From Mycolicibacter minnesotensis (GTDB lineage Bacteria; Actinomycetota; Actinomycetes; Mycobacteriales; Mycobacteriaceae): a stretch of 64,000 nt of DNA. Below are positions 10,351 to 55,971 of the stretch, piece after piece (the first letter of the stretch is position 1; each line of letters opens with the position of its first letter). The translations under genes and the position numbers were made by a program. The stretch covers positions 372,001 through 436,000 of the forward strand of contig NZ_AP022589.1 of the NCBI RefSeq assembly GCF_010731755.1, read 5' to 3'. The notes below the pieces were generated by a model. It was not told the origin of the DNA, did no database searches, and saw only the letters and a list, made by a program, of their open reading frames with translations.

Positions 10351-11135
10351 GACTTTCCTTTGCGAATTACCGGATTGGACAGAGTGCCAATGCCTTCGAT
10401 GGAGATGGACACGGTGTCGCCGTGCTCGATGGGACCGACACCGTCGGGGGTGCCGGTAAGGATGATGTCGCCGGGCAGCAGTGTCATCACCGCGGAGATC
10501 CACTCCACGATGGCACCGACGTCGTGCATCATCAGCGAGGTCCGACTGTCCTGCTTGACCACCCCGTTGACCTCGGTCCGGATGGCCAGGTCGGCCGGGT
10601 CGAGGTCGGTGACGATCCACGGTCCGACCGGGCAGAAGGTGTCATGCCCCTTGGCCCGGGTCCACTGCCCGTCGGACTTCTGCTGATCACGGGCGGACAC
10701 GTCGTTGCCGATCGTGTAGCCCAAGATGTTGTCTTTGGCGCGCGCGGCCGGAACGTCTTTGCACGGACGCGAGATGACCACGGCCAGCTCCCCTTCGAAG
10801 TGGACCGGGGAAGCGTTGGCGGGCAGCTGAATCGGAACATTGGGGCCGATGATGGCGGTGTTGGGCTTGAGGAACATCATCGGATTGGCTGGTGGGGAGC
10901 CACCCATTTCGGCGATGTGGGCCGCATAGTTCTTGCCGATGCAGACCACCTTGCTGGCCAGAATCGGGGCGAGCAGACGCACATCGGCCAGCGGCCAGGA
11001 CCTGCCGGTGAACTCCGGTGTGCCGAAGGGATGCTCGGCGATCTCGCGGGCGGTCATCTCATGTGGCCGGTCGGGGTCTCCCTCAAGGCTGACGAAGGCG
11101 ACACCGTCCGGGCTGGCAATTCGACCTAGGCGCAT
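10347..11135 (-). CDS. fumarylacetoacetate hydrolase-family protein (Rv2993c-like)
   Basis: This 262-residue protein has the FAH catalytic domain. ICGKNYAAH-type sequence ([15 protein letters not shown]) near residue 78, the metal-binding FEGELAVVI and DVSARDQQ are typical of bacterial hydratase, isomerase or decarboxylase members of the family. It probably acts on a 2-oxo or enol carboxylic acid, with Mg as cofactor. The start ATG at 11135 gives [11 protein letters not shown], as in Rv2993c. Its stop overlaps the gltX start by four bases. Longer upstream reading frames are not supported. The exact substrate is unknown. Confidence 0.87.
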
Positions 11136-20835: not shown

Positions 20836-21581
20836 CTGGTCAAGCCGAGATCAGTTCAGAGATAGCGGAAATCCAGGCCGATTACGAGCGCGCGGGCGTC
20901 GAGGAAAGCCAGCCCAAGCTTGACTATCCGCCCTACCGCAGCAGCACTCTTCGACATCCCCACCGTCCGCTGCAGCTGACCGACCCCGAGGGCATCGAAC
21001 TCTGGTCCCCGTGTTTCGGTGAGGGTGATGTCGGTGACCTTGATGCCGACCTGACACTCCAGCACGCAGGCTGCCCGATCGGCGAGCGGACGGTGGTTAC
21101 CGGGCGGATCGTCGACGGCCAGGGCCGGCCAGTCCGCAGACAGCTCGTCGAGATCTGGCAGGCCAACGCCAGCGGCCGCTACATCCACCAGGGGGATCAG
21201 CATCCGGCGCCGCTGGACCCCAATTTCACCGGGGCCGGGCGGTGCCTCACCGACGATGAGGGGTTCTACCGGTTCACGACGATCAAGCCGGGACCGTACC
21301 CCTGGCGCAATCATCACAACGCATGGCGGCCCGCTCATATCCATTTCTCTTTGTTTGGAAACGATTTCACCCAGCGGATGATCACCCAGATGTATTTCCC
21401 CGGCGACCCGCTGTGCGACTTGGACCCGATCTACCGATCAGTTGCCGACCGCCGGGCCCGCGAGCGTCTGGTCGCGGTTTATGACCACGACACCACCACT
21501 CATGAATGGGCTACCGGATACCGCTGGGACATCGTGCTTACCGGGCCGGCCGCGACGCCCTTCGAGGAGCATCATGGCTGA
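20832..21581 (+). CDS. pcaH: protocatechuate 3,4-dioxygenase beta subunit
   Basis: This 249-residue intradiol dioxygenase subunit carries the Fe(III) site. The iron ligands are the two Tyr of GFYRFTTI and GPYPWRNH and the two His of RPAHIHFS. It cleaves protocatechuate between its hydroxyl groups to give 3-carboxy-cis,cis-muconate. ATG at 20832 overlaps the upstream stop; a GTG six bases earlier is less likely. The stop overlaps pcaG by eight bases. Confidence 0.96.
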   Translation: MTGQAEISSEIAEIQADYERAGVEESQPKLDYPPYRSSTLRHPHRPLQLTDPEGIELWSPCFGEGDVGDLDADLTLQHAGCPIGERTVVTGRIVDGQGRPVRRQLVEIWQANASGRYIHQGDQHPAPLDPNFTGAGRCLTDDEGFYRFTTIKPGPYPWRNHHNAWRPAHIHFSLFGNDFTQRMITQMYFPGDPLCDLDPIYRSVADRRARERLVAVYDHDTTTHEWATGYRWDIVLTGPAATPFEEHHG

Positions 21582-22125
21582 GCTCACCGCAACGCCGGGT
21601 CAGACGATCGGACCATTCTTCGGCTACGCCCTACCTTTCGACCTCGGCAACGAACTGGTCCCGCCGGGCTCGCCCGGTGCCCTTGCATTTCACGGCACCG
21701 TCACCGACGGCGCGGGGGCACCCGTCCCCGATGCCCTGGTGGAGATTTGGCAGGCCGATAGTCGCGGTGCCCTACCCACCGCCACCAGATCACTCCGCCG
21801 CGACGGCCACACCTTCGCCGGATGGGGACGCGCAGAGACCGGACCCGACGGCCACTACACCTTCACGACCGTGACTCCTGGGGCCCAACGAGATTCGTCG
21901 CCGTTCATCGCGATCACGGTGTTCGCACGCGGCCTACTGAATCGGCTGTTCACCCGCGCCTACCTACCCGGTGGCCACCTCGGCACGGATCGACTGCTGA
22001 ACTCCGTGCCTGCCGACCGCCGCCACACCCTGATCGCGGCGCCCGACGAACACGGCTTTCGCTTCGACATCAGACTTCAGGGCCCGAACGAGACCGTATT
22101 TCTGCGCTACCGGGGGCAGCCGTGA
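21574..22125 (+). CDS. pcaG: protocatechuate 3,4-dioxygenase alpha subunit
   Basis: This 183-residue protein is the partner subunit of PcaH. It begins with TPGQTIGPFFGYAL, the usual alpha-subunit start, and contains LVEIWQADSRG and the TRAYLPG segment. It contributes to the active-site pocket but lacks iron ligands. The ATG lies inside the pcaH end, so the two subunits are coupled. Confidence 0.95.
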   Translation: MAELTATPGQTIGPFFGYALPFDLGNELVPPGSPGALAFHGTVTDGAGAPVPDALVEIWQADSRGALPTATRSLRRDGHTFAGWGRAETGPDGHYTFTTVTPGAQRDSSPFIAITVFARGLLNRLFTRAYLPGGHLGTDRLLNSVPADRRHTLIAAPDEHGFRFDIRLQGPNETVFLRYRGQP

Positions 22126-51420: not shown

Positions 51421-52053
51421 CTACGCGGACATGGCACGGGCCCGTGCGGCGATGCCGTCGGCGCGCCGGCGGGCAACACCGAGCAAACGCAGATGCGCCA
51501 CCGCGATCGCCTCGCCGGTGTCATCGGGGTCCGCCCCGGCCAGGACCTCTCGGGCACCCACGGCGAGTACGGCGACCAGGATGTCCACCACCAGGTGACG
51601 CGGACTGATGATGTCGAACTCACCGGCGTGGACACCGGCACGGACGTCATCGTCGATCTGAACCGAAGAACGCCGTGCTGCGTCGTGGTGCTGCTCCAGA
51701 TACTGCGTCATGATCGCGCCGAGTTCCCGGTTGGCTGCGATCGCCCGCATGGTCCCGACCGCACCTATGGCGATTCGGGCTGAATAGCTTCCGGTGCGCT
51801 GGACCTCGGCCAGGCGCGCCACGTGATCGCCGAGTACCACCGCAGCAACGGCTTCCTCGAGCTCCTGCTTGTTGGAAAAGTAGTGATAGAAGATGCCGTT
51901 GGAGACTCCGGCGGCCTGAGTGAGGCGTAGCACGGAGGTGGCTGCCACGCCGTCCTCGGCGAACATGGCGATCGCGGTTCGGATCAGGTGATCACGCCGT
52001 TGATCGGGACTGAGGCGGGCCCGCTTCTTCGCCTCGCCAGCAGGGCTGGGCAC
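51421..52053 (-). CDS. TetR regulator of the FAD-DUF3500 locus
   Basis: This 210-residue protein has a TetR helix-turn-helix (residues about 18-62, with VLRLTQAAGVSNGIFYHYFSNKQEL) and a helical ligand-binding domain. It diverges from the large FAD monooxygenase gene, with two overlapping palindromes in the gap. The arrangement suggests that it represses both itself and the monooxygenase operon until a substrate is present. The start is ATG at 52053. Confidence 0.9.
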   Translation of the reverse strand: MPSPAGEAKKRARLSPDQRRDHLIRTAIAMFAEDGVAATSVLRLTQAAGVSNGIFYHYFSNKQELEEAVAAVVLGDHVARLAEVQRTGSYSARIAIGAVGTMRAIAANRELGAIMTQYLEQHHDAARRSSVQIDDDVRAGVHAGEFDIISPRHLVVDILVAVLAVGAREVLAGADPDDTGEAIAVAHLRLLGVARRRADGIAARARAMSA

Positions 52054-52157
52054 ATCTACTCCTTCACTGCGGCGACGTCCAGGATCGCCCCGCTCTGCAG
52101 GTTATCAACGACGCCAGCTGGCACCGGTGGTTTCCGTGACCTTTGCTGAGATCCTTG

Positions 52158-52185
52158 TCAATAACTATTGAGATCATTCTCAATA
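52158..52185. promoter_or_regulatory. paired overlapping palindromes, candidate TetR operators
   Basis: TCAATAACTATTGA (52158-52171) and TATTGAGATCATTCTCAATA (52166-52185) are both perfect inverted repeats and share TATTGA. They lie between the divergent TetR and monooxygenase starts, 42 bases before the latter, where TetR operators are expected. The low GC content stands out. Confidence 0.75.
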
Positions 52186-52226: not shown

Positions 52227-55151
52227 ATGGCTGCCACAGATACTCAGGAAGGCGTTCCGGTCGTTGTGGCCGGCGGCGGGATCGTCGGCGTGACCCTCGC
52301 CCTGCTACTGGCCCGCCGCGGCGTCTCGACCGTGGTACTCGAGCGTGACGAGCAGCCCCGCACACTGCCGCGAGCGCACGCAGTCAACCCCCGCACCATC
52401 GAGATCCTGCGCGAGCTCTCCGTGGATGTCGGCGCGCTGCGTGATATCGCCGCGCCTGCGGAGTTGACCAGTGAGGTCCGATTTGTGACCACCTTGAGCG
52501 GGGTGTGCTTCGGGTCGCTGCCCTACGAAAGACAAGGCGACGGCATCGGCGACCTGGCCGCTACGGGGACGTTGAACATCCCGCAGCCAGACCTGGAGGC
52601 CGTTTTGTTCGATCGCGCTGCCGCCGAACCGCTGATCGATCTGCGCCGCGGCCACGAGTGGGTCTCGGCCCAGCAGGATCGCGATGAGGTCACCAGCACC
52701 GTGCGCGGCCCCGGCGAGTGCTATCGGGTGACCTCGCAGTTCCTGGTGGCCTGCGACGGCGCAGGCAGCACGGTCCGCGCCGAACTGGGTGTGCCGATGT
52801 CGGGGGTTGCCAACATCGCCTCCGCGGTGTCGATGACCTTCGCCGCCGACCTGACCGAGGTGGTGCGTACCCGTCCCGGAGTGCTGAACTGGGTACTGGC
52901 CCCGTCGCTGAAAGGCACCCTGTTGGCCTACCAACCCGAAGGGTTGTGGACCTACAACGTCGCGTTGCCGCCGGGGCGAGTCGATATGTCCGGCTTCACC
53001 CCGGAACTGGCGCTCGGACATATCCGGGCGGCCCTGGGGCCCGGTGCCGAACACGTAGCCGTTGAGGTCATCGCCTCGACCCCGTGGACGCTCAACGCAG
53101 AAGTCGCGCAGCAATATCGGATCGGCAACATCTTTCTGGCCGGCGACGCGGCACACCGATTCCCGCCTACCGGAGGCCTCGGCCTCAACACCGGACTTCA
53201 AGACGTCCACAACCTTGCTTGGAAGCTGGCCGCCGTCTCAGACGGCTGGGCACCGTCGTCGCTGCTGAATACCTACCAGGCCGAACGGCAGCGGGTGGCG
53301 CGGCGCAACGCCGACCAGAGCCTGACCAATCTCGGGGCGATCCGGGCGCTCGACATCTTCAACCCGGTCGCCCAGGACGACGTCAAGGCCGCGGCTTTCA
53401 CGGCCGATCCGGCAAACGCCGAAGTCATCGCGGAGGTGATCGAGCGTCAACGCCCCCACTTCGACTCGGTGGCACTCCAGCTGGGCTTCTCCTATGACCC
53501 GGGCGAGCCCGAGGTCGCCGACGTCACCGATTTCCAGCCCCGCGCGATCGCCGGGCGGAGATTGCCGCACGGCTGGCTCGACGCAGGCGGAGCCCGCACA
53601 GCGGTCCTCGATCTGGTGGATCCCGGGGCCTTCACTGTGTTGCTCCTCGACGCGACCACTGCACCGGCGATCAACTCCCGCTACCCGATCAAGGTGGTGC
53701 GCCTTGACCGTGACGCACCCGACGTCGCCGACTGGATCAAAGCGGTAGAGCTCACCGATACGGCAGCGCTGCTGATTCGCCCCGACGGCCATATCCTGGC
53801 CGTCGCTGCCCAGCCTGCGGAGCTGGCAAGCTTCGAACCGGCAATCGACGTGCTGCTGGACGGCCCCGCATCCGACGATTCGACGCATCGCGATCCGCCT
53901 CCGGAGGGCTTCCGTCGGTATCTCTACCCGCCCAATCACCCGCGGCTGGCCGGTCTCGACCACTACGACGCCGCCGGCTACTCCGACGCCATGTGTCATG
54001 CGCCGCTGCTCGGCGATGCCCTCAAGTGGTGGAAGCACCTGTTCGAGTCCGGCACTTTCACCGGTATCACCAACGACGGCAGCCGCCGCGACGACCTCTA
54101 CCCGGTGGGGGGCCACGAGGACGCCCCCACCGGCGCCGCCCTCACCGCCGCCAACGCGTTGATCGAGGCCGTCTCCGAGACCGACCGCCGACAGCTGGTA
54201 CACCCGGTCAACAGCAAGGTGTGGCGGGCGTGGATGAATCCGGAGTTCTACGTGAACCGGTTCGGGCTACGCCTCGAAGAGCACGATGAAACCGTTCGGG
54301 CTCGTGCCCACGAGCTGATCCGGGCCAGCGTCAGCGCGGAGGGTTACGACCTGATTCGCAGCATCATGGCCACCAACGGCTTTCTCGGCGAGTTGGTCCA
54401 GCTTCCCCGGCTGCTCAACGAAAACAGCTACAACATCAATATCTTCGGCACCCCTTCGGCCGACGAACCATGGGGCTGGAACCTCTACGGTCACCACCTG
54501 TGCCTCAACTGCCTGTTCATCGGCGACCAGCAGGTGTTCACCCCGATCTTCCTCGGCGCCGAGCCCAATGAGATCGACACCGGCGCCCACGCCGGTACCG
54601 TGCTGTTCACCGAACACCAACTAGGCGGGCTGAACCTGGTGCGATCACTGCCCTCCGAGCTTGCCGCGCAGGCGATTCTGTACCACGCCAAGCGCGATCC
54701 CACGATGCCTGCGGGCCGGGTGCACCCCGCTGACGAGCTTCATCTGGCCGGCATGTTCCAGGACAACCGCGAAATTCCCTATGAAGGCCTGAACCTGGCG
54801 TCCTGCCCGGAGCCTCTCCGCGAAGCCACGCTGGAACTGGTCGAGGTCTTCCTGCGCTACCAGCCCGACGGGCCGCGCAGCGCCCGGCTGGCCAGCGTTC
54901 GTGACTATCTCGACCAGACCTGGTTCTGCTGGATAGGTGGCACCGACGACAGCTCCCCGTTCTACTACCGGATCCAAAGTCCGGTCATCCTGATCGAGTT
55001 CGATCATCACGCGGGCGTCTTCTTGAGTAACAGTGAGCCCGAACGCTTCCACGTCCACACCGTGGTGCGCACACCCAACGGCAACGACTACGGCGCGGAG
55101 CTGGTCTGTCGCCACACCGGAAGCCCCCAGTCACTCGATGGTCCGCAATGA
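52227..55151 (+). CDS. FAD-dependent monooxygenase fused to DUF3500
   Basis: This 974-residue protein has three parts. Residues 1 to about 400 are a PheA/TfdB/MhpA-type FAD monooxygenase with the dinucleotide motif AGGGIVG at 15-21 and the second FAD motif GDAAHRFPPTGGLGLN at about 306-321. Residues about 430-555 look like the thioredoxin-like C-terminal domain of such hydroxylases. Residues about 559-970 match DUF3500, a domain of unknown function: WGWNLYGHHLCLN near 750, FLGAEP, then FYYRIQSP, LIEFDHH and HVHTVVRTPNGNDYG. The reading frame is continuous, with no internal stop or shift. ATG at 52227 follows AAAGGACC. The natural substrate is unknown; an aromatic or enol compound is likely. 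This fusion is not one I recognise. Confidence 0.88.
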   Translation: MAATDTQEGVPVVVAGGGIVGVTLALLLARRGVSTVVLERDEQPRTLPRAHAVNPRTIEILRELSVDVGALRDIAAPAELTSEVRFVTTLSGVCFGSLPYERQGDGIGDLAATGTLNIPQPDLEAVLFDRAAAEPLIDLRRGHEWVSAQQDRDEVTSTVRGPGECYRVTSQFLVACDGAGSTVRAELGVPMSGVANIASAVSMTFAADLTEVVRTRPGVLNWVLAPSLKGTLLAYQPEGLWTYNVALPPGRVDMSGFTPELALGHIRAALGPGAEHVAVEVIASTPWTLNAEVAQQYRIGNIFLAGDAAHRFPPTGGLGLNTGLQDVHNLAWKLAAVSDGWAPSSLLNTYQAERQRVARRNADQSLTNLGAIRALDIFNPVAQDDVKAAAFTADPANAEVIAEVIERQRPHFDSVALQLGFSYDPGEPEVADVTDFQPRAIAGRRLPHGWLDAGGARTAVLDLVDPGAFTVLLLDATTAPAINSRYPIKVVRLDRDAPDVADWIKAVELTDTAALLIRPDGHILAVAAQPAELASFEPAIDVLLDGPASDDSTHRDPPPEGFRRYLYPPNHPRLAGLDHYDAAGYSDAMCHAPLLGDALKWWKHLFESGTFTGITNDGSRRDDLYPVGGHEDAPTGAALTAANALIEAVSETDRRQLVHPVNSKVWRAWMNPEFYVNRFGLRLEEHDETVRARAHELIRASVSAEGYDLIRSIMATNGFLGELVQLPRLLNENSYNINIFGTPSADEPWGWNLYGHHLCLNCLFIGDQQVFTPIFLGAEPNEIDTGAHAGTVLFTEHQLGGLNLVRSLPSELAAQAILYHAKRDPTMPAGRVHPADELHLAGMFQDNREIPYEGLNLASCPEPLREATLELVEVFLRYQPDGPRSARLASVRDYLDQTWFCWIGGTDDSSPFYYRIQSPVILIEFDHHAGVFLSNSEPERFHVHTVVRTPNGNDYGAELVCRHTGSPQSLDGPQ

Positions 55152-55188: not shown

Positions 55189-55971
55189 ATGGATCTAGGT
55201 ATCGCCGGCCGCTGGGCAGTAGTGGGAGCCTCCAGTAGGGGTCTGGGGCGCGCCTGCGCCCAAGCCCTTGCCGCCGAAGGGGTCAACGTGGTGATCAACG
55301 GCCGCGACCGTGTGTCGCTGCAGGCCACTGTGGCCGACCTGTCCGGCGCCCATCCCGACGTCGCTGTCCGGGCGGTGGTCGCGGACCTGGCTACGGCGAC
55401 GGGTCGCGCTGAGCTGCTCGACGTCTGTCCCAATCCGGACATCCTGGTAACTAACAACGCAGGGCCGCAACCGGGTTCGCTGCTCGATATCGACGACGCG
55501 GCACTGACCCATGCCCTGGAAGGGCATTTCTTTGCGCCGATCGCTCTGGTCCGGGCCGTGATCGGCGGCATGCGCGAGCGGCGGTTCGGTCGGATCGTCA
55601 ACATCACCTCGGCGATGGTGGCCACCCCCAACCCGCTGATGGCCGCGTCCTCAGGTGCACGTACAGGTCTGACTTCGGTGATGAAGGGTCTGCAGCGCCA
55701 GACGGTTTCCGACAACGTGACGATCAACCAGCTGATGCCGGAGCGGATCGACTCCGGCCGTCAGCAACAGCTGGCGACGTTGGAGGCTGCAGCTCTGGGG
55801 ATCAGTGTGGAGGCTGCCCGGCAACGCCAAGCGGCGTCGATCGCCGCCGGTCGCCTCGGGGAGCCCGCCGAAGTGGGTGCCGCGTGCGCGTTCCTGTGCA
55901 GCGCGCACGCCGGCTACATCTCCGGAGTCAGTCTGCGCCTGGACGGCGGCAGCTATCCGGGACTGCTGTGA
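55189..55971 (+). CDS. atypical short-chain dehydrogenase lacking Tyr/Lys
   Basis: This 260-residue SDR has a normal nucleotide motif (GASSRGLG, residues 13-20), NNAG at 89-92 and a catalytic-position Ser141. Where YxxxK should be it has Ser154 and Arg158 in SSGARTGL. A known atypical SDR group shows the same loss. The fold is thus intact, but the usual proton relay is missing, so it may catalyse a different step or bind ligand only. ATG at 55189 follows GGAAGGGC. It lies 37 bases after the FAD-DUF3500 gene and is surely in its operon. Confidence 0.88.
   Translation: MDLGIAGRWAVVGASSRGLGRACAQALAAEGVNVVINGRDRVSLQATVADLSGAHPDVAVRAVVADLATATGRAELLDVCPNPDILVTNNAGPQPGSLLDIDDAALTHALEGHFFAPIALVRAVIGGMRERRFGRIVNITSAMVATPNPLMAASSGARTGLTSVMKGLQRQTVSDNVTINQLMPERIDSGRQQQLATLEAAALGISVEAARQRQAASIAAGRLGEPAEVGAACAFLCSAHAGYISGVSLRLDGGSYPGLL

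Follow-up and report, generated by a model that had tools for sequence, protein, structure and literature searches.

A flavin monooxygenase fused to a DUF3500 protein in Mycolicibacter minnesotensis, and a possible role for DUF3500 in phenol catabolism

What does a DUF3500 protein do, and what would one gain by being joined covalently to a hydroxylase? The question is raised by a gene of Mycolicibacter minnesotensis (RefSeq assembly GCF_010731755.1), found in a stretch of 64,000 nucleotides of contig NZ_AP022589.1 (positions 372,001 to 436,000) that is here called the window and whose own numbering is used. An uninterrupted frame of 974 codons and a stop, at 52227-55151 on the + strand, encodes a flavin adenine dinucleotide (FAD) monooxygenase followed by a DUF3500 protein (Table 1). 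The fusion is real. The explanation we favour, at roughly even chances, is a two-step phenol-catabolic enzyme: the flavin half hydroxylates, and its product passes to the DUF3500 half, which probably opens the ring. Both families are known, and so is the type of pathway; what seems to be new is the covalent arrangement. No description of a monooxygenase-DUF3500 fusion was found in the accessible portions of the literature that mentions DUF3500, from which papers with a misspelt DUF name would escape.

Two complete enzymes in one chain

Hydroxylation of phenols by monooxygenases of the flavin family depends on FAD, NAD(P)H and O2. The N-terminal half of the fusion matches the Pfam families FAD_binding_3 (PF01494) at residues 10-364 (E 2e-80) and Rng_hyd_C (PF21274) at residues 441-544 (E 4e-10, 40.4 bits against a cut-off of 27.5). 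It carries the FAD motifs GGGIVG (16-21), DGAGSTVR (177-184) and GDAAH...GLNTG (306-323), which correspond to the GxGxxG, DG and GD motifs. In Foldseek, its best match is PieE (6u0s/6u0p), followed by HbpA, with RubL and RebC also close. The protein shares its domain set, FAD motifs and fold with monooxygenases of the PheA/TfdB/HbpA/PieE type but differs from them by having a second enzyme at the C terminus.

This second enzyme matches DUF3500 (PF12006) at residues 633-956 with an E-value of 4.8e-98 and 328.8 bits (cut-off 27.2), over positions 3-296 of a profile of 297. Ten Pfam families matched the fusion protein at E <=1, and the dioxygenase families PF00775, PF02900 and PF00903 were not among them. 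Alignments with stand-alone DUF3500 relatives begin at residue 563, so that the chain consists of two complete proteins with a linker of about 18 residues. Thirteen of the 18 linker residues (545-562) are the same in the counterpart from Mycolicibacter arupensis. In the predicted model, the predicted local distance difference test (pLDDT) score falls below 50 at residues 549-560, and the interdomain stretch 549-620 is modelled mostly at low confidence. The mechanically called open reading frame could also start upstream, at a TTG at 52143.

The counterpart in M. arupensis DSM 44942 (locus L010, 8001-10925, from a separate record) is also 974 residues long and aligns without gaps, with 876 of 974 residues identical (90%). 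The ratio of nonsynonymous to synonymous substitution rates (dN/dS) between the two is 0.154 over the whole gene; taken separately, residues 1-544 give 0.136 and residues 563-974 give 0.179. The fusion is conserved under purifying selection, and residues 563-974 are themselves under purifying selection between both fusions. A sequencing error or the merging of two adjacent genes is ruled out by the gapless counterpart and the dN/dS of 0.154, and a chance reading frame by the Pfam domain matches. A preliminary description, made from the sequence of this stretch alone, had proposed a 974-residue fusion of a complete PheA/TfdB-type monooxygenase, FAD motifs included, with a DUF3500 part of about 410 residues. 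The single frame, both Pfam domain sets, the profile match in the C-terminal half and the alignment of stand-alone relatives all agree with it. The occurrence in related species that it had named as support is borne out by M. arupensis, where the gene order is alike and the layout identical; the sequencing error that it had named as a possible refutation does not apply.

The fusion is rare. When the DUF3500 half was used as a query, 10 of 396 congeneric genomes gave a relative with an E-value of 1e-30 or lower, and in two of the 396, the window's own and M. arupensis (G078), DUF3500 lies in a frame of about 1000 residues. Only one DUF3500 gene is present in the window genome, a single contig of 4.22 Mb. 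Contigs from 84,980 species were scanned with exact peptide patterns, a method that reaches close relatives only and may not cover the window's own genome; of the 123 relatives, M. arupensis provided one further full-length fusion among the best 80. The flavin hidden Markov model (HMM) was also run on 164 DUF3500 frames of at least 250 residues (stop-to-stop, duplicates included) from the collected loci, which leave out some long frames, those of G535, G559 and G678 among them. It matched only in the window (L001) and in M. arupensis (L002 and L010), and frames of 650-1049 residues elsewhere were rejected as further flavin fusions. At one locus (L230, 7938-12227, in G608), two DUF3500 genes are neighbours. 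The frame that holds the first is some 1016 residues long; its N-terminal part has no flavin-domain match and may be a spurious extension.

DUF3500 itself is more widespread. Genomes with PF12006 make up 9 of 118 sampled from the genus, 39 of 301 from the family, 124 of 348 from the order and 26 of 396 from the phylum, in samples that overlap. A search of viral contigs with the DUF3500 alignment gave no relative. One DUF3500 protein (L190, 7710-8993) has an N terminus that looks by eye like a Tat (twin-arginine translocation) or lipoprotein signal, from which some DUF3500s may be exported; the three-row clade to which it belongs has neither fumarylacetoacetate hydrolase (FAAH) nor monooxygenase neighbours.

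Across an alignment of 80 rows, the DUF3500 half carries the family-wide conserved elements GHH, E, HxH, R and D. H942, H944 and R948 occur in all 80 rows and D954 in 79. The four invariant His and one invariant Arg, together with the near-invariant Glu and Asp, suggest a metal site. Because these seven polar residues are invariant or nearly so, an active site is favoured over mere substrate binding.

The only solved DUF3500 structure found is 9x86 (ApmL/Amc20), the entry title of which reads “dehydratase in amipurimycin biosynthesis”, and the DUF3500 half has its fold. ApmL/Amc20 differs in being a 297-residue chain without a flavin half and in belonging, according to its title, to a nucleoside-antibiotic setting, and it aligns only from about residue 77 of the window's DUF3500 half onward. 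The name ApmL does not occur in the parts available of PMC10698177, which is about the amcB-amcH cispentacin genes, or of PMC11188666; PMC7842363 deals with a different DUF.

Gene company of stand-alone DUF3500 proteins

The DUF3500 loci came from named genomes, plasmids and four surveys, and genes were counted as neighbours up to about 8 kb to either side, where the contig reached that far. Loci scoring above 440 bits with a local HMM, 32 after the removal of two duplicates and including the window, are referred to as group A. Within it, 28 of 32 loci have an FAAH-family gene and 28 of 32 a PF01494-type monooxygenase. An IclR regulator is among the neighbours at 21 of the 32. In the window and L010, the monooxygenase counted is the fused half; without these two, FAAH is found at 28 of 30 loci and the monooxygenase at 26. 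FAAH is missing at the window, L010, L015 and L189. If the frame-to-frame gap is limited to 1 kb, FAAH is found at 24 of the 32 and the monooxygenase at 19, both fusions included. As a control, 31 segments picked by hand from the surveyed genomes, each about 17 kb long, yielded no FAAH and one monooxygenase. Enzymes of the FAAH family cleave the 1,3-diketo acid that results from ring opening of a meta-dihydroxylated ring.

Among the 48 lower-scoring loci, 14 have FAAH and 12 a monooxygenase. Ten of these 48 sit in the clade of the window, which makes a comparison by tree clade the fairer one. A maximum-likelihood tree was made from 80 rows, three of the 83 matching frames having been dropped (L201, weak and split, and two L257 fragments). 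It places the window and L010 together (support 100/100) within a clade of 42 rows (100/98). FAAH accompanies 36 of these 42 rows and the monooxygenase 34, against six and six of the remaining 38, where four of the six FAAH rows belong to a separate clade that contains L011.

Since the neighbour HMMs had been built partly from neighbours that were later counted, Pfam PF01557 was used as an independent check. Of the 25 genomes with an unfused group-A gene, at least 24 have a match no more than 8 kb from DUF3500, and of the two fused ones neither has; G628 is the unfused genome with no PF01557 nearby among the matches listed. Each of these 27 genomes holds 4 to 15 PF01557 matches overall.

The clearest operon is that of L179, where cupin, FAAH, DUF3500 and FAD monooxygenase genes follow in that order, with overlaps between genes. 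Mycolicibacterium sp. CH28 (L011) has an unfused version of the system consisting of an MFS gene, an FAD monooxygenase (54% identical to that of the window), a short-chain dehydrogenase/reductase (SDR, 71% identical to the product of window 55189-55971, and lying between the monooxygenase and DUF3500 genes) and a DUF3500 gene (30%), with FAAH next on the opposite strand. Three functions that are separate in CH28 correspond to two genes in the window, where two of them are fused, which supports a shared pathway. Other arrangements include, outside the Actinomycetota, DUF3500-FAAH-HpaH-HpcH aldolase on a plasmid of Thioclava sp. GXIMD4216 and Rieske-FAAH-DUF3500-FAAH-cupin on a plasmid of Paraburkholderia sprentiae, and TetR-DUF3500-cupin-AMP-binding-FAAH in Rhodococcus qingshengii CS98. 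For two stand-alone DUF3500s that are among the closest (57-59%; L014, 4669-12955, and L013, 3542-7821), the genes alongside include CoA-transferase III, FAAH and enoyl-CoA-hydratase-like ones, which hints at a variant of the pathway linked to coenzyme A (CoA). The available part of a gene list for R. qingshengii RL1 (PMC8416521) contains, under near-consecutive tags, a flavin hydroxylase, an MFS protein, a helix-turn-helix protein, DUF3500 and an FCD-domain protein. Around distant DUF3500s, SDRs and NTF2-like/DUF4440 or L-PSP-family proteins recur (L192, 3507-4759; L195, 1882-2406; L232, 4511-5697).

Canonical ring-cleaving dioxygenases were sought in 27 genomes, made up of the 25 unfused group-A genomes, the window and M. 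arupensis, with L012, L013, L015 and the plasmid loci outside the set. Intradiol PF00775 lay within 8 kb of DUF3500 in one of the 27 (G1213, on the contig of L014) and LigB (PF02900) in none; no glyoxalase-fold PF00903 lay within 8 kb of a group-A DUF3500 among the matches listed. A known parallel is provided by the homoprotocatechuate meta-cleavage sets, which consist of HpaD, FAAH/HpaG, HpaH and HpaI. As in these sets, FAAH adjoins DUF3500, and in Thioclava so do HpaH and the HpcH aldolase. Unlike them, 26 of the 27 genomes have neither PF00775 nor PF02900 within 8 kb, and the window has no FAAH nearby. Altogether, the genomic case for a role of the bacterial DUF3500s of the window's clade in aromatic catabolism is strong.

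Ring opening and its rivals

The identifier IPR021889 denotes DUF3500, in agreement with the work on Aspergillus nidulans described here. In A. nidulans, according to PMC12388069, PhyA makes 1,2,3,5-tetrahydroxybenzene from gallic acid, and the proposed next step is the conversion of this compound to 5-hydroxydienelactone by the DUF3500 protein AN10530, a putative dioxygenase. A second source lists the “open-ring” protein of the tetrahydroxybenzene pathway as DUF3550 (IPR021889) and describes the pathway as seemingly restricted to fungi (PMC13094099). With these proposals and the dehydratase title of 9x86, the view that DUF3500 has no known function, which was that of the preliminary description, is outdated. 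Given such a proposed role, the fusion fits, with the hydroxylase first and ring opening second. The likeness to the fungal pathway is that a DUF3500 protein is proposed to act directly after a hydroxylase in phenol catabolism. The fungal enzymes, however, are separate proteins, whereas the window belongs to a bacterium and has the two enzymes in one chain, along with an SDR. AN10530 and the window protein are likened here by description only.

The following scheme for the fusion, with its metal, substrate, reaction, channelling and regulation, is what we infer from sequence and gene context. The N-terminal monooxygenase would use NAD(P)H and O2 to turn a phenol into a polyhydroxylated ring. 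The His/Glu site of the DUF3500 half, probably holding a metal, would bind the oxygens of this product through the metal and open the ring or carry out a step linked to its opening. With DUF3500 tethered to the hydroxylase, an unstable intermediate would not have to leave by diffusion. The SDR would act on a ketone or alcohol before or after hydroxylation and ring opening, and the TATTGAGA palindrome would be the site from which the TetR repressor controls the divergent promoter. Among the unfused relatives, the 1,3-diketo acid so formed would next be split by the FAAH-family enzyme; for the window genome, such an enzyme would have to be encoded elsewhere.

Of the two functions offered in the preliminary description, action on the hydroxylated product gains from the FAD-monooxygenase and FAAH neighbours and from the fungal proposal, and mere binding of the substrate becomes less likely in view of the conserved polar residues. 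The description of the unit as catabolic-looking is supported.

Several observations weigh against ring opening by the fusion. Neither the local HMM nor PF01557 finds FAAH within 8 kb of the fusion in the window or in M. arupensis, and of the five FAA_hydrolase matches that the window genome holds, the nearest is some 41 kb from the fusion. This match (window 10368-10952, - strand, 239.9 bits), which is also the best in the genome and has a similar one on the fusion contig of M. arupensis, is possibly a housekeeping enzyme, yet it is a candidate for the missing third step. The flavin enzymes near other DUF3500s are about 24-35% identical to that of the window over long alignments, so that their substrates may differ. 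The cupins near 9 of the 32 group-A loci could be the oxygenases there. A protocatechuate dioxygenase pair lies beside DUF3500 at L014; the Thioclava plasmid has the canonical dioxygenase hpaD about 2 kb away on the opposite strand, which could use the same lower-pathway enzymes; and a dioxygenase is annotated about 7 kb downstream of the Paraburkholderia locus. Finally, the conserved residues of the DUF3500 half are common to the “dehydratase” 9x86 and therefore do not decide the chemistry, and it is the title of 9x86 that keeps ring opening from being rated above an even chance.

That title is also the source of the serious rival, in which the DUF3500 half, like 9x86, would work as a metal-dependent dehydratase (hydro-lyase). 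Its substrate would be the flavin product or else a hydroxy-ketone, ring-opened or alicyclic, and no ring would be cleaved in the protein. The case for a dehydratase rests on the entry title, overall identity to 9x86 is about 25%, at which the reaction may differ, and the aromatic-catabolic gene company is unlike a nucleoside-antibiotic cluster. The fungal proposals are also for ring opening (PMC12388069, PMC13094099). We consider a dehydratase unlikely, though clearly ahead of the readings that follow.

The ring might instead be opened without O2, by a metal-dependent hydrolase whose substrate would be a polyhydroxybenzene in its keto-tautomer or quinone form. Such an enzyme would fit a dehydratase-like, water-handling site and the FAAH partner of the relatives, and the flavin half is the only known oxygenase family matched in the protein. 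The fungal authors, as reported in PMC12388069, proposed a dioxygenase, and a hydrolase is improbable. There is a similarly slim chance that the fusion has departed from catabolism and become a tailoring enzyme of secondary metabolism: the fold matches of its flavin half include the biosynthetic PieE, RubL and RebC besides HbpA, its locus has no FAAH, and 9x86 is titled as biosynthetic. The closest stand-alone DUF3500s (57-59%), on the other hand, adjoin catabolic-type genes, and the neighbours of the fusion look like housekeeping genes by eye, with no polyketide synthase (PKS) or nonribosomal peptide synthetase (NRPS) recognised among their translations, for which no family search was made. 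A non-catalytic DUF3500 half that only stabilises the monooxygenase or binds substrate, the latter an option of the preliminary description, gains no evidence here and is very unlikely, given seven polar residues, four His among them, (near-)invariant in 80 rows and purifying selection on residues 563-974 (dN/dS 0.179).

With ring opening by the DUF3500 half as the favoured explanation, a broader proposal can be made, more tentatively still and at somewhat less than even chances. The bacterial DUF3500s of this clade may be an unrecognised metal-dependent class of ring-opening enzymes. They would have no relationship to intradiol, extradiol or cupin dioxygenases and would stand in for the ring-cleaver where Actinomycetota and Proteobacteria have hydroxylase-FAAH clusters. 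The fusion protein would be the extreme form, hydroxylating and then opening the ring, and a bacterial counterpart of the seemingly fungal-only pathway.

The fusion locus and its meaning

The fusion has its own TetR regulator and a dehydrogenase-fold partner, as earlier proposed; the Pfam matches to PF00440 and PF13561 bear this out (Table 1). The palindrome between the divergent genes may be the operator of the TetR protein, judged from its sequence and position, and a similar palindrome, TTGAGAT-AC-ATCTCAA, lies in the corresponding place in M. arupensis. The housekeeping-like genes farther out, recognised by eye, are ligA, mnmA, a cysteine desulfurase and gatA, in an order common to M. arupensis. 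Elsewhere in the window, about 30 kb from the fusion, two adjacent PF00775 matches (21006-21885; contig positions 393006-393545 and 393679-393885) resemble a protocatechuate 3,4-dioxygenase pair, in what looks like a second aromatic-catabolism locus.

Table 1. Features of the fusion gene and its surroundings (window positions)
Feature	Position	Strand	Basis
Fusion gene, 974 residues, FAD monooxygenase and DUF3500	52227..55151	+	Single open frame, Pfam domains, M. arupensis counterpart
PheA/TfdB-type FAD monooxygenase including Rng_hyd_C, complete, residues 1-544	52227..53858	+	
Inter-enzyme linker, residues 545-562	53859..53912	+	Stand-alone DUF3500 alignments begin at 563
DUF3500 protein, complete, residues 563-974	53913..55151	+	
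H756-H757, candidate metal ligands	54492..54497	+	80 of 80 DUF3500 rows; present also in 9x86
E924, candidate metal ligand or catalytic acid	54996..54998	+	E in 79 of 80 rows
H942, H944, R948, D954, candidate metal ligands or catalytic residues	55050..55088	+	
TetR-family regulator, divergent	51421..52053	-	PF00440, E 2.5e-13; 90% identical, same place, in M. arupensis
SDR, 37 bp downstream of fusion	55189..55971	+	PF13561, E 1.7e-27; 88% identical in M. arupensis
Candidate TetR operator TATTGAGA-TCAT-TCTCAATA	52166..52185	+	Perfect 8-nt inverted repeat, divergent intergenic region

DUF3500 is common in bacteria, being present in more than a third of the genomes sampled from the order, yet it is annotated as of unknown function there. 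The fusion, together with the FAAH and monooxygenase company of the stand-alone genes, points to a step for it, the conversion of hydroxylated phenols, and in the fusion a single protein unites hydroxylation with the step that comes next. If that step is a dehydration, one scaffold would serve both antibiotic biosynthesis and phenol catabolism. If it is ring opening, DUF3500 would represent a new class of ring-cleaving enzymes, and a pathway described as seemingly restricted to fungi (PMC13094099) would reach into the bacteria.

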